Origin: an uncultured Anaerobiospirillum sp.
GTDB taxonomy: Bacteria > Pseudomonadota > Gammaproteobacteria > Enterobacterales > Succinivibrionaceae
NCBI GenBank assembly: GCA_944390115.1
Contig: CALXOW010000023.1
Location: 1-46,128 of the forward strand
Direction of reading: 5' to 3'
Length of the DNA stretch: 46,128 nucleotides
Below the pieces are notes generated by a model. It searched no databases. It was given only the letters and a program-made list of their open reading frames with translations, and was not told the DNA's origin. Numbering within the stretch: position 1 is the first letter of the stretch; each line of letters begins with the position of its first letter. Below, in pieces: positions 2,368-13,482 of this stretch. The position numbers and the translations under genes are program-made.

Positions 2368-3186
2368 AATTATCTACCAAATACGGACGCTCACCACCTG
2401 CATCCTAGGCCCGGCTAGGCAGCACCTGCACGCAACTGCTGCCTAGTCGCGCCCACGAGCGCAACCACTAATGGAGAGCATCCAACATCACCACGATCAC
2501 CTAAAGCCAAGGAGCCACATCAACACGATGTTACTAACCAAGGTTTAGCCTAAGTCCATCACCGTAGAGGGTGAGCCTCTAACCACTCTAAGCTTTAACC
2601 TTGCCTTAGCTGGTAATCTTCTGAGTACGGAGCAAAGCCCCAGCACTGCCAACCGCTCAAGAGCAAAATCTAGCCCACCAACGACCACAAGAAAGCCTAA
2701 GGCGCTGCCTTTTAGGGCAGCACTCAGCTTGAGCACTTGCGACCACCTGCGCCAAGATGATGCAACGCAGTTGCAAAAAATTGGCGTTATTTTCGGCAAA
2801 AGCCCTGACAAATGCAAGGCAAAAGCATGGAAAAAAACGCATTTTGTCAGCAATATGACAGCGCCCGCCCCCATAAAGAAAAAGGCACGCGTGCCCTATT
2901 CCGTGCACTATTTTGCAACACAAAAAAGGCACGGCAAGAACTAGCATAACCCGCTTATGCTTGCGTTTTGTTGCCGAATTTGACCAAACGTGCGCTGTGT
3001 CGCAAAGACACAAAAGTATTGCGATTTCTTGCCCCGCGCGCGCTCAAGCATTGAGCTAGAAGCGATCCTGTCCCACGCCCTCATGCCCCAAAAGAAAGCC
3101 TGAGCTCACCACGTCAGCTCAGGCCTTCCCTTCGTACCAATTAAAATCTCAGCTCAATCAAGCCAGCACAACCAAGCCGCGCTCAA
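2368..3186. other. Intergenic region upstream of yidE-like gene
   Basis: I see no convincing gene here. The short ORFs have no ribosome-binding site and no recognisable motif. The stretch contains several symmetrical sequences that could be operators or leader structure: the 12-bp palindrome GGCACGCGTGCC at 2884-2895, a nested hairpin at 2932-2976 (outer CGGCAA/TTGCCG, inner GCATAA/TTATGC), and the inverted repeat TGTGTC-N5-GACACA at 2996-3012. The yidE promoter presumably lies within it, but I cannot place it. Confidence 0.5.
3091..3124 (-). terminator. Terminator of the DUF1349 gene
   Basis: Perfect 9-bp stem GCCTGAGCT/AGCTCAGGC with a 9-nt loop, followed on the minus strand by TTTCTTT. 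It lies 63 bp beyond the stop of the DUF1349 gene. Confidence 0.75.
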
Positions 3187-3798
3187 TCAAACCTCGTCCG
3201 GCTGTTGGCCATCATGGGCCTGCCAAGCGCAAGGCAACAAAGCCATGTTGGTGAAGACCGCCGTAAACGAGGAATCTTCCGGGCTGCAGGCATAGACGCC
3301 AAAAGATACCGGGCCTTGCGCCGCATGCAGGTGGCACACGCGCATTTGCTTGAAGGTTACGCCGTCCTCCGAGCACTCGATGCGAAAATCGTCGGCGCGG
3401 CGGCTTAGGCGATACCACATCGATTTGATGGTGGCCGGAATTTCGGTGGTGGCCCAGTCCGAATAGCCTTGATTGGTCACCACGCTACCCAAGTGAGCAA
3501 AGCGCTCGTTCTCGTACTCAATCGACCCTTTAAGCCAATTCTCGCTGTCCAAGTAAAGTACGATGCCGCACTGGTCAAAGCGATGATGGCTCGCGGCAAA
3601 GTCCGTCTTAACCACAAAGGAGAAATACTGCGAATCCGTGGTCATCTGGAGCACCGGCGCATTGTCGTTGCGAAAATGGTAATAAGTGCGCTGCCACAAA
3701 TCGGTGTGCGGCACGGTCTCAATCTCAATGCGCTCAGGCGAAATCACAAAGTGCTGCGGAGCACGGGTCCACACCAGCTTACTGACGTCAAAATCCAT
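3187..3798 (-). CDS. DUF1349 protein (concanavalin A-like beta-sandwich)
   Basis: This 203-residue protein matches the DUF1349 pattern: a tryptophan-rich beta-sandwich with conserved segments DQCGIVLYLDSENWLKGSIE, VVTNQGYSDWATTE and FGVYACSP. The family is related to concanavalin A/laminin-G folds and often accompanies, or is fused to, glycoside hydrolases. It is expected to bind or trim carbohydrate, but no activity is established. There is no signal peptide, so it should be cytoplasmic. A strong AGGAGG lies 6 nt before the ATG. It is the third gene of a same-strand set after GH5 and GH43, separated from GH43 by a 160-bp gap with a hairpin, so it may be transcribed partly on its own. Confidence 0.8.
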   Translation of the reverse strand: MDFDVSKLVWTRAPQHFVISPERIEIETVPHTDLWQRTYYHFRNDNAPVLQMTTDSQYFSFVVKTDFAASHHRFDQCGIVLYLDSENWLKGSIEYENERFAHLGSVVTNQGYSDWATTEIPATIKSMWYRLSRRADDFRIECSEDGVTFKQMRVCHLHAAQGPVSFGVYACSPEDSSFTAVFTNMALLPCAWQAHDGQQPDEV

Positions 3799-9944: not shown

Positions 9945-10958
9945 GTGCTTATTCGCAAAACGCTCCCTGAAGATCTTCCCCTGCTTGACGCCATTTTTGA
10001 TCAATGCCGCGCTTATATGGCCAAGGAAGGCAACCCAACTCAATGGGATGAGAAGTACCCGACCAGCATCGTGGTCGCAGACGACATCAAGCAAGGTCAC
10101 GGCTACGTTTGTCTCAATGATGAGGGCCAGGTAGTCGCAAGCTTTGCGCTAGGCGACTACGAGCCCGAGTACGACCGCTTGCGTGACGGCGCTTGGCACA
10201 GCGCTAAGCCCTACATCGTAGTCCACCGCATGGGGGCGCTGCCCAATCACGGTGCCGGGCAGTTTATCTTTGCCTGGCTCATGGCACGCTATCCACATAT
10301 TCGCATCGACACCCACGAAGCAAATAAGACCATGCGCCACATCTTAGACAAGCTCGGTTTCCAATACACTGGCGTGGTCAGCTACGAGGGCTATGGCGAC
10401 CGCATCTGCTTTGATTACATTGCCCCCGCACGCAAGCACGCCCCAGCGCTACTCAACATCCGAAAAGCTCAAGCATCAGACTTAGAGCGCTTAGATGAGA
10501 TCTTTGAAGGCGCCCGGCAGTTCATGTACGCCCACCACAACTTCAATCAGTGGATGAACGGCTTCCCGAACCAAAACGACGTCAAGCCCGCCTTAGACGC
10601 CGGAGAGCTCTACGTCGTGATCGACGAAGACCACCACGATGAAATCGTGGGCACCTTTGTCCTATCGGACTACGAGCCGGTCTATGATGAGCTCCAAGAT
10701 GGTCAATGGCAAAGCGACCAGCCGTACAAGGTCATTCATCGCATGGCCACGATCCAAGGCCGAGGCGTGGGCACCTTTATCTTCAAAATGCTAATGGCTC
10801 AATACCCATACCTACGCATCGACACCCACGCCGACAACCAGCCGATGCATGAGCTTGCGACCAAGCTGGGCTTCAAGCGTGTGGGCAAGGTCTTCTACAA
10901 CAGCCGCAACGCCGGTTGGCGCGAGTGCTACGACTACCTGCGGCCGAGCACCAAGTAA
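9945..10958 (+). CDS. Tandem-GNAT N-acetyltransferase (two fused domains)
   Basis: A 337-residue protein made of two homologous GNAT domains, residues about 1-160 and 168-337. Both halves carry the same landmarks in order: an IRK..P/A..DL..LD.IF opening, a W in NPTQW or NFNQW, a LGDYEPEYD or LSDYEPVYD strand, VHRMG or IHRMA before the acetyl-CoA loop (GAGQFIF or GVGTFIF), then YPHIRIDTHEANK or YPYLRIDTHADNQ and KLGF. The repeat therefore arose by internal duplication. Single-domain relatives of about 160 residues are common in Firmicutes and gut bacteria. The start is GTG at 9945 with GAGG 8 nt upstream. Substrate unknown. It follows the exporter closely and may act on a molecule that the exporter handles, which is only inference. 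Confidence 0.85.
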   Translation: MLIRKTLPEDLPLLDAIFDQCRAYMAKEGNPTQWDEKYPTSIVVADDIKQGHGYVCLNDEGQVVASFALGDYEPEYDRLRDGAWHSAKPYIVVHRMGALPNHGAGQFIFAWLMARYPHIRIDTHEANKTMRHILDKLGFQYTGVVSYEGYGDRICFDYIAPARKHAPALLNIRKAQASDLERLDEIFEGARQFMYAHHNFNQWMNGFPNQNDVKPALDAGELYVVIDEDHHDEIVGTFVLSDYEPVYDELQDGQWQSDQPYKVIHRMATIQGRGVGTFIFKMLMAQYPYLRIDTHADNQPMHELATKLGFKRVGKVFYNSRNAGWRECYDYLRPSTK

Positions 10959-11275
10959 AGCCATCAAGTAAAACCATGGGGCGCTTCAGCAAGCATTGAG
11001 CACCAGCACAGAAATCGATCAACAGCGCCCGCTCTCCGAGACCAGCCATAACTCCAGCCTCAACATTCTGAGAGTGCGCAATGCCTTGGATAGGCTGGGA
11101 CTTAATGCTCCGCCTAAAGCGCGGAACTTTGAGCGCCTTCAAAAGCGCAATATTGGGGGCTGCCATAAGCTTTAGCCTTGAAGTGGCGCGAGAGCCTTGC
11201 CCAGGCAGCGCGCCCTAAAGCTCAGGCGGTTAGTGCGACCAAAAGATTAGGCCGTGGGGCACTTTCAGAGCTCGA
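10959..11275. other. Non-coding stretch before the inverted-repeat element
   Basis: I see no gene or strong hairpin followed by a T tract here. It separates the tandem-GNAT gene from the mobile-like element. Confidence 0.4.
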
Positions 11276-11317
11276 GTCGTGACCGCGACTGGGCAGCAAT
11301 TTTTCCTGAATTATCGT

Positions 11318-11344
11318 CCCCTTAAAAATGGCGTTTTTAAGGGG
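11318..11344. repeat. Left internal hairpin of the element
   Basis: CCCCTTAAAAA-TGGCG-TTTTTAAGGGG, a perfect 11-bp stem with a 5-nt loop, overlapping the inner edge of the left terminal repeat. It could also act as a terminator in either direction. Confidence 0.75.
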
Positions 11345-11582
11345 ATTAACAAGCAATATGGTTGTGCGGAGTAAGAAGATTAAGCCACATCAGTCCATAT
11401 GAATCACGCGCGCAATTAGATCATTGGTAACATCTGTTCACTTGCGTCTGATTTTACCTTATGATTGAAGTCAATTCTGGCGTCAGCAGTAGGGATCGCG
11501 TGAAAAATGCCAATTTAATCGATGATCGCAGCTAAAGACAGGCTGCTTGCAGGCATAGGAATCAGGATGTAGTCCGCATTAT

Positions 11583-11631
11583 CCCCTTATTGTTAGTTAG
11601 CATATGCTAACTAACGTCAAATAATGAGGGG
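11583..11631. repeat. Right internal palindrome of the element
   Basis: A perfect 24-bp palindrome at 11592-11615 (half-site GTTAGTTAGCAT) is nested within a CCCCTTATT / AATAATGAGGGG outer pairing, directly inside the right terminal repeat. It mirrors the left hairpin in position. Confidence 0.75.
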
Positions 11632-11709
11632 ACGCTAATTCAGAAAAAATTGCTGCCCAGTCACGGTCGTGAGGCGCGCCGTCAAAATCTTGCGGTTTTC
11701 ATAAATGAC

Positions 11710-11757
11710 AAAAGCCAGCACGCCGCGCCGGATTTCCGGTTCAACGTGCTGGCTTTT
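11710..11757. terminator. Bidirectional terminator downstream of porin gene
   Basis: Perfect 13-bp stem AAAAGCCAGCACG/CGTGCTGGCTTTT with an internal CCGG-ATTT-CCGG mini-stem in the loop and T runs on both strands. It lies about 140 bp beyond the lamB-like stop codon and can serve minus-strand transcription; it would also block readthrough from the inverted-repeat element. Confidence 0.8.
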
Positions 11758-11895
11758 CTATAACCAAAAAGGCCTGCACTGGGCGCTGCTCGAGGCAACG
11801 CCCAATGTAGACCTTGGGGGCGACCGCTCGTGCCCTAGGGCACTAATCGCGATCGCCTAATCGTCTAACTGAATCGTTAAACTAGTGGTTGACTA

Positions 11896-13482
11896 TTACC
11901 ACCAGGCCTCAGCCTGAACACCGAAGTTCCACTCGGAGTCATCAGAGCTTTTACCGTAAGCGCCGTTTAAGGCAGCATTATTGGTGTTCCAACCTAAGTC
12001 ATCGCCATTGATGTCAATGTAGGAAGCATAAACACGCAGCTCAGGACGTGCCATTAAGCCCTTGCCTGCCGCAATAGCGTAGGCTAAGGTGTACTTCTGA
12101 CCATCCTGCGAGCGATCTGGGCCATCAACGTAATCAACATCTTCCCAGTACGAACCAACTTCAGCTAACAAACGGGTGTAAGTGGTGAGTTGGTAACCGG
12201 CACGGGCGACTGCGCGGATAATGGAGTGATTATCCTCAGAGCCCATATCCGTGGCATAGCCGTAGTGCAGAACGTGAGCTAACGAGAAGTTATCAGTGAT
12301 GTTGAGCTCACCGGTATTGATGATACCAAAGCCCTTAGCATCTTCATTATCATTCCAAGCATCGTACCAACCGCCACCGATATCGATAACGTTGTGAGCT
12401 AAAGCCTTGTTAGCGTACTGCAGCACAGTCTTGTTATAACCTAAGCTGAAGTTTTGGCTAAATTCAATGGTGCCCATGAAGCTGGTATCTTGGTTGCTGT
12501 CACCATCTACATCAGAAACAGAACCGTTTACATCACCCCAAGATTGATTCGTTGCATCCCAGTACTTGGTGTTACCACCATCCACATCAGATGGGATAGC
12601 TACAGTTGCAGTGAACTGAGTCCAAGCACCCTGCCAAGGCGCCCAACCGGCATAACGTAAATCTAAGTAGTTAACGTTAACTGGAGAGAAATACGACTTA
12701 TCATAGCCGTTGGCATCCTTGTACATGTACTCGACGTCTTCACGATCGGTACGAATCCATGCAAAGGAGAAGGTGCCTGGGCCAGCCTGTAAGTACTCAA
12801 TACCAGCACCCGAGCCCGAGATGTTGAGATACTTGGAGTCAATGATGTGGATATCAGCACGTTGGTAGTAGCGCTTACCAGCCCAAATTACGGCATTTGG
12901 CTGATTAGGGATTAAGCCCTTAACTTGGAGGTTGAACTGACGTAAAGCGACGTTGAAATCATCATCGGATAAGCCTTCACCGTCCTCAGAACCATCCGAG
13001 CTTAACTGCAACATCGAGTCGATGTAGAAGCTTACGTCGTTGACGCGGTAAACCTCAGTACCAAACTCGAGCTCAGAATAGGTATCGGACTCGTTGCCTA
13101 AACGGCCAACCTTGTTAACGTTCCAACCACCGTTAGCGCCCTGGCTCGACTTACCAACACCGGCACGGAAGTAGCCGTGGAAGTCAAAGGATGGCTTCCA
13201 ACCTACATCAACCTTGGCAGCCTTACCATCTGCAACTTGATCAACGATAGCCTTAGCACGGGCGCTCTCGGCCTCAGCCTTAGCTTGGGCAGCCTCAGCA
13301 GCACGCTTGGCCTCAACAGCGGCAGCCTCAGCGCGCTGAGCGGCAGCAACTGCCTCACGAGCAGCGGCTAATGCAGCATCGATATCGGCCTGACCTGCAG
13401 CAGCAGCGTTGGTGCTGTACAGAGTCATGCTTGCAGCTAAAACGGCGGCGGCAAGGGTTGAAAACTTAATTGCCCCTTTCAT
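11896..13482 (-). CDS. lamB: LamB/ScrY-type sugar porin with periplasmic coiled coil
   Basis: A 528-residue outer-membrane porin. A signal peptide (to about residue 29, ANA/AAA cleavage region) is followed by an Ala/Glu/Lys heptad segment (about 35-85) like the coiled coil of sucrose porin ScrY, then the 18-stranded maltoporin barrel. Family signatures are FDFHGYFRAGVG, GRLGNESDTYSELEFG, WAGKRYYQRADIHIIDSKY and a C-terminal WNFGVQAEAWW ending in an aromatic residue. Next to the ganSPQ transporter and its ATPase, it most likely admits galacto-oligosaccharides, though the barrel itself does not show the substrate. It is on the same strand as the upstream ATPase gene but separated by 650 bp, with its own candidate CRP-dependent promoter and a long leader. 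The ATG is preceded by a weak TAGGT. Confidence 0.92.
   Translation of the reverse strand: MKGAIKFSTLAAAVLAASMTLYSTNAAAAGQADIDAALAAAREAVAAAQRAEAAAVEAKRAAEAAQAKAEAESARAKAIVDQVADGKAAKVDVGWKPSFDFHGYFRAGVGKSSQGANGGWNVNKVGRLGNESDTYSELEFGTEVYRVNDVSFYIDSMLQLSSDGSEDGEGLSDDDFNVALRQFNLQVKGLIPNQPNAVIWAGKRYYQRADIHIIDSKYLNISGSGAGIEYLQAGPGTFSFAWIRTDREDVEYMYKDANGYDKSYFSPVNVNYLDLRYAGWAPWQGAWTQFTATVAIPSDVDGGNTKYWDATNQSWGDVNGSVSDVDGDSNQDTSFMGTIEFSQNFSLGYNKTVLQYANKALAHNVIDIGGGWYDAWNDNEDAKGFGIINTGELNITDNFSLAHVLHYGYATDMGSEDNHSIIRAVARAGYQLTTYTRLLAEVGSYWEDVDYVDGPDRSQDGQKYTLAYAIAAGKGLMARPELRVYASYIDINGDDLGWNTNNAALNGAYGKSSDDSEWNFGVQAEAWW

Follow-up and report, generated by a model that had tools for sequence, protein, structure and literature searches.

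The stretch of DNA analysed here (the window; 46,128 nt of contig CALXOW010000023.1 from an uncultured Anaerobiospirillum sp.) carries a short palindromic element between two convergent genes. To its left lies a GNAT acetyltransferase gene (9945-10958, + strand) and to its right a LamB-type porin gene (11896-13482, - strand), beyond which a MalK-like ABC transporter gene is located. A separate hairpin (11710-11757), whose tails are T-rich on either strand, also stands between the GNAT and LamB genes and is likely to be a bidirectional terminator of the host. The element comprises the following features, its + strand running in the same 5'-to-3' direction as the parent IS:

11283-11666, + strand: whole element of 384 bp, assigned with high confidence as a MITE of the IS1634 family from its terminal inverted repeats (TIRs), duplication, relatives and parent IS
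11277-11282, no strand: left copy of the target-site duplication TCGTGA (matching 6-bp flanks)
11667-11672, no strand: right copy of the target-site duplication TCGTGA (matching 6-bp flanks)
11283-11322, + strand: left TIR, counterpart of the IS end on the transposase-5' side (5' end of the G009 IS: 84.6% identity over 39 bp)
11627-11666, - strand: right TIR, counterpart of the IS end on the transposase-3' side (3' end of the G009 IS: 81.4% over 43 bp)
11317-11345, + strand: left subterminal hairpin, whose 5' arm starts in the inner TIR end (GTCCCC); z -3.9 (60-nt window), -1.7 (100-nt end)
about 11583-11631, - strand: right subterminal hairpin, enclosing a perfect 24-bp palindrome; z -5.0 (60-nt window), -3.5 (100-nt end)
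11346-11582, no strand: non-coding core; compared in 48-bp blocks with the core of the G003 MITE, it is about 63-78% identical

The TIRs are 40 bp in length with three mismatches, begin on their outer side with CCGYGACTGGGCAGC and end on the inner side in CGTCCCC. With up to three mismatches allowed, the 46-kb window contains their terminal motif twice, compared with 0.00 expected from 100 shuffles. A preliminary description of the region had correctly recognised the inverted ends, sizing them at 44 bp with about four mismatches, and had bracketed them with a 7-bp direct repeat, GTCGTGA. This repeat does flank the element, at 11276-11282 and 11666-11672; in its right copy, however, the initial G is the last base of the element itself. 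The duplication is therefore taken to be the 6-bp TCGTGA, because the same borders applied elsewhere give CCATAA around a MITE in the congener G003 and exactly six bases, CCATCA, around a full-length IS in the congener G009. The left hairpin has a perfect 12-bp stem with a 5-nt spacer, one pair longer than first described, and the perfect 24-bp palindrome reported on the right was found at 11592-11615, nested in a larger CCCC...GGGG hairpin. In agreement with the earlier statement that no transposase is present, 11283-11666 contains no ORF of 60 or more amino acids. A tblastn comparison of the IS transposase with the element returned a single chance-level match (E 3.1), and nothing in the core credibly resembles either the transposase or the body of the G009 IS. 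A transposase remnant was thus rejected as the source of the core, which is not derived from any IS seen.

The full-length partner lies in G009 (contig C35, 136-2067; locus L065) and is a 1932-bp IS with matching ends, flanked on both sides by CCATCA and encoding a single 561-aa transposase. This protein matches NF033559 (IS1634) at 3.4e-53, scoring 181 bits against a cut-off of 100, together with Pfam DDE_Tnp_1 (PF01609; 7.4e-12) and DUF4277. Among 30 loci (L061-L090) taken from a larger number matched by the IS1634 profile, this was the only one to possess these ends at two or fewer mismatches; a match to the end pattern in L084 was rejected, the rest of the motif being missing. The family is described in Table 1 of PMC2266710 as comprising elements of 1500-2000 bp with ends of the form C-----YT and direct repeats of 5-6 bp, and the parts of that account drawn on here note arginine in only 5 of 32 members at the position occupied by Q in the G009 transposase, which, read by eye, has the motif Y-(2)-Q-(3)-E-(6)-K. 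The ends of the G009 IS, CCGCGACT/CCGTGACT (CCGYGACT), fit the family pattern. In its length, end bases, 6-bp duplication, NF033559 match and lack of arginine in the motif, the parent IS therefore resembles the family as described there. IS1634 and IS1549 themselves are distinguished in the same source by long, variable duplications, as opposed to the 6 bp observed here. Target duplications of the family are also characterised there as AT-rich tracts; over 11 duplications in the present data, A and T make up 40 of 66 bases (61%), a mild excess over the 47% of the window.

Copies of the element are confined to the genus in the genomes searched. A DNA search with the element gave matches in four of 59 genomes (the window's own and three of 58 relatives), all of the same genus. 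A whole MITE of 386 bp, flanked by CCATAA, is present in G003 in the opposite orientation (contig C77; L010 1502-1887) and matches the window MITE in 296 of 390 aligned columns. Repeats are often broken off at contig ends, and in the congener G010 MITE ends occur on four contigs (C44, C56, C166 and C216), each broken at a contig end. C56 and C44 share TCAGGA and the flanks of C166 and C216 differ, indicating at least three MITE insertions. At up to three mismatches, the end pattern was detected in 5 of the 11 genomes of the genus, including the window's own, and in none of 46 other genomes of the family. An exact form of the pattern, sought among the contigs of 84,980 species (genome_contigs, from which the window's own genome is possibly absent), was found on nine contigs, eight from Candidatus Anaerobiospirillum stercoravium and one from an uncultured Anaerobiospirillum sp. 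A phage or plasmid origin was also considered and rejected, there being no match in plasmid and phage collections and none to the exact end pattern in IMG/VR.

The two G010 pieces compared (L011 and L013) are identical to the G003 MITE at 130 of 131 and 128 of 128 positions (258 of 259 overall), whereas the GNAT genes of these two genomes are only 80% identical over the 659 bp compared. This disparity suggests recent movement of the MITE between the G003 and G010 species, by what would be transfer between species, and points to recent spread within the genus. The window MITE, in turn, may be an old and inactive insertion, since it is the only MITE copy found in its own genome bin (G000) and has diverged from the G003 copy.

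The locus itself provides a further comparison. Both flanks lie close together in 3 of 10 congeners (G003, G009 and G010), and in all three the element is missing; the remaining seven yield partial matches (four genomes) or nothing (three). The preliminary description had proposed looking for multiple copies with the same ends, for a full-length IS with matching ends and for unoccupied sites retaining a single copy of the direct repeat. The first two are borne out by the copies in G003 and G010 and by the G009 IS, which names IS1634 as the parent family; the third is borne out as far as absence of the element is concerned, the intergenic sequences of the three congeners having diverged too far for the single-copy target to be read base by base. 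The ends, the duplications, the copies, the full-length IS from this family and the lack of the element at three orthologous loci were all observed directly, and they make it almost certain that this Anaerobiospirillum-like genome carries an IS1634-family MITE at 11283-11666, that is, a non-autonomous transposon as had first been suggested. It combines TIRs common to an autonomous IS with small size, lack of a transposase, a target-site duplication and dispersed copies in the genus, and an unannotated palindromic region is now settled as a mobile element with a named parent family.

Ends of the parent family are also present in the genome of the window. Twelve contigs of G000 (C5, C13, C15, C18, C52, C65, C76, C79, C91, C110, C116 and C119) end in an IS1634-family IS, six in a left end and six in a right end. 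When the window MITE is added to these six ISs, each of the seven left ends has exactly one partner among the seven right ends with which it shares a 6-bp duplication free of mismatches; in the remaining 42 of 49 pairings at least two bases disagree. The count excludes the arrays in G001:C162 and G000:C60/C31, because the outer CCGYGAC terminus is missing from them. The duplications thereby indicate which of the twelve contigs are likely neighbours. Over the 75 bases seen, the left end of the IS is identical in G000 and G009, and the G009 right end differs from that of G000 by a 3-base T insertion; the GNAT genes of the two genomes are 78% identical. A transposase gene of this IS was not found in the G000 bin, presumably as a consequence of the repeat having collapsed or not having been binned. 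G010 contains two matching left-right pairs, C56-C44 (the MITE) and C111-C158 (a second, IS-like pair), in addition to one left and three right ends that are unpaired. No transposase gene is linked to the end-bearing contigs of either G000 or G010, and the direct parent has accordingly not been seen.

By analogy with the family, the MITE would have depended for its movement on a DDE transposase supplied in trans by a related IS of full length. It would retain both ends of the autonomous element, each a TIR of about 40 bp with a hairpin just inside, without the transposase, and so would contribute ends only. An IS1634-type transposase would bind the two ends and excise the element, probably by cut and paste, after which its insertion at a target whose strands are cut 6 bp apart would generate the 6-bp target duplication.

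The paired hairpins are the unusual point of the element and are seen in ISs and MITEs of the genus; in the G009 IS they are located as in the window MITE. The layout of arm, hairpin, core, hairpin and arm, described at the outset as more elaborate than that of a typical MITE, is therefore real, but the full-length IS has it too. Folded in 60-nt windows, all eight ends taken from the genus (two MITEs, two ISs) form a hairpin starting from the TIR-borne CCCC, with differing stems. Relative to shuffles, the z-scores of these ends range from -1.5 to -6.4 (60-nt windows) and from -0.8 to -5.0 (100-nt ends). The 5' ends of the ISs are weak (z -1.5 and -1.9 over 60 nt, -1.6 and -0.8 over 100 nt), and that of the G009 IS has a different longest helix in its 100-nt fold. 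For wider comparison, four distant relatives from two other genera, with transposases 36-39% identical and end positions that are approximate, were folded in the same way. The CCCC-type hairpin is present at none of their eight ends, one of which (in L120) nonetheless reaches z -2.0 in its 60-nt window. The view that distant relatives have no end hairpin was rejected, as 100-nt folds reveal another form at three of the eight ends, where GCAG, the core of the terminal repeat, is base-paired with a second copy further in; L122 has it at its two ends (z -3.1 and -5.6) and L120 at one (z -1.9). End hairpins thus recur across the wider IS group, in more than one form; five of the eight distant ends show no clear end hairpin of any form. 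In L122 (G031:C6) the two hairpins lie at about 1038-1140 and 3165-3268, each with the core GCAC.GCAG paired with its inner copy.

Within the genus, the stems vary in a manner that is suggestive of, although not proof of, selection on hairpin pairing. Among seven 5'-type stems, four of which come from one tandem array, pair 6 is T-A, C-G, G-C or T-G and pair 5 is T-A or G-C, and among four 3'-type stems pair 7 is A-T or G-C. Pairing is incomplete at other positions, with pair 7 formed in three of seven and pair 11 in two of seven 5' stems, and pair 7 in two of four 3' stems. The 3' hairpins of the IS and MITE have the motif GTTAG in common, in most cases as part of GTTAGTT or TAGTTAG, which fits the orientation assigned to the window MITE.

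These structural properties allow for readings other than, or in addition to, a simple MITE. Changes on both sides of some stem pairs between relatives, and hairpin windows that fold better than shuffles, are what might also be displayed by a fixed element belonging to the host locus, either cis-regulatory or a structured RNA, such as one in the 3'-UTR of the acetyltransferase or porin gene. Such an element is barely conceivable here given its absence from the syntenic locus in three congeners and its copies at other sites with different target duplications; the single conserved copy at this position in all relatives that the preliminary description associated with such a role is not what is found, and a lax Rfam scan produced only two sub-threshold matches, both outside the element. 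Very improbable, too, is the earlier suggestion of a mobile transcription terminator or insulator, in which the hairpins would stop transcription from both sides and the element be kept for this reason. A position between convergent genes would suit this role, as would the TTTT that lies inward of the 5' hairpin in the full-length IS, yet neither MITE hairpin has a T-run behind it, whichever strand is read, and a terminator scan of 10900-12000 gave no match within 11283-11666. The two matches that the scan did return, a number barely above the mean of 1.6 (sd 1.3) in shuffles, both fall in the separate 11710-11757 hairpin, which is the better candidate for a terminator and has a similar counterpart in G003, where the locus is without the element.

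A third proposal concerns the hairpins alone, namely that they form part of the transposition machinery, being recognised as cruciform or single-stranded DNA or by a host factor, and that the element is in this respect structurally unlike the usual IS1634 MITE. The presence of the CCCC hairpin at 8 of 8 genus ends despite differing stem sequences, and of the other end hairpin at 3 of 8 distant ends (both of L122 and one of L120), is in keeping with this idea, which is nevertheless rather doubtful: the CCCC type is absent from 8 of 8 distant ends, five of which have no clear hairpin, the IS 5' ends are weak, the longest helix of the G009 IS 5' end changes in the 100-nt fold, and the z-score of -2.0 is attained by an L120 end without a CCCC hairpin. 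A related and equally tentative proposal is that, in the Anaerobiospirillum branch of IS1634 elements, selection maintains TIR-begun end hairpins because they serve transposition, through recognition of the ends or control of the transposase, also in MITEs, with the stems turning over and the GCAG-type hairpins of distant relatives being other solutions. The TTTT following the 5' hairpin of the G009 IS, in the inward direction, favours a shielding role in the IS; this hairpin could possibly protect the transposase gene from outside transcription, and the hairpins, which have no T-run in the MITE, would then have been carried over into it. Judged from sequence, the hairpins may shield the IS gene, serve in end recognition or be mere passengers. 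The available IS and MITE ends with differing stems offer a natural starting point for examining the role of subterminal hairpins for an IS1634-type transposase.

MITEs of the IS1634 family are already known from Methanosarcina, where PMC3852290, in the part drawn on here, links MITEs of 247 and 249 bp to ISMba11 and ISMac10, respectively, and finds that the new MITEs mostly resemble an IS only at their borders. The window MITE is similar in being non-coding, a few hundred bp long and endowed with inverted repeats common to an IS1634-family partner, and it shares a 6-bp duplication with the ISMba11-linked MITE. It differs from the Methanosarcina elements described in that part in its length of 384 bp, its 40-bp rather than 18-20-bp repeats, its bacterial host and its few copies per genome. 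Of the features of the element, only the hairpin pair is potentially novel. Paired CCCC...GGGG hairpins inside the TIRs set the parent IS apart from the family account in PMC2266710, which does not mention them in the portion used here. Among the papers retrieved on IS1634 and MITEs, on subterminal palindromes in bacterial MITEs and on Anaerobiospirillum transposases, none describes the element in its title or the opening of its abstract, which at that level is not proof of absence. Stem-loops of the IS200 type are reported, in the relevant part of PMC3196728, to block impinging transcripts. The present IS resembles IS200 as treated there in having stem-loops near an IS end that may shield the transposase gene, and differs in belonging to another transposase class; moreover, the MITE carries no gene to shield.

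End motifs of this type are also encountered in tandem arrays. In G001, the third relative with matches to the element, these matches fall in an array (contig C162; L060 6158-6498) of about four tandem 87-bp units, each containing the inner portion of the terminal repeat and a CCCC...GGGG-type hairpin without the outer CCGYGAC; the array is satellite-like and has seemingly arisen from a single transposon end. In G000, the end of contig C60 (L142 8041-8404) is composed of tandem repeats of about 183 bp containing the inner terminal-repeat motif. A repeat related to that of C60, also with this motif, is found at the start of contig C31 (L005 1-300), and the two may be parts of a single array.
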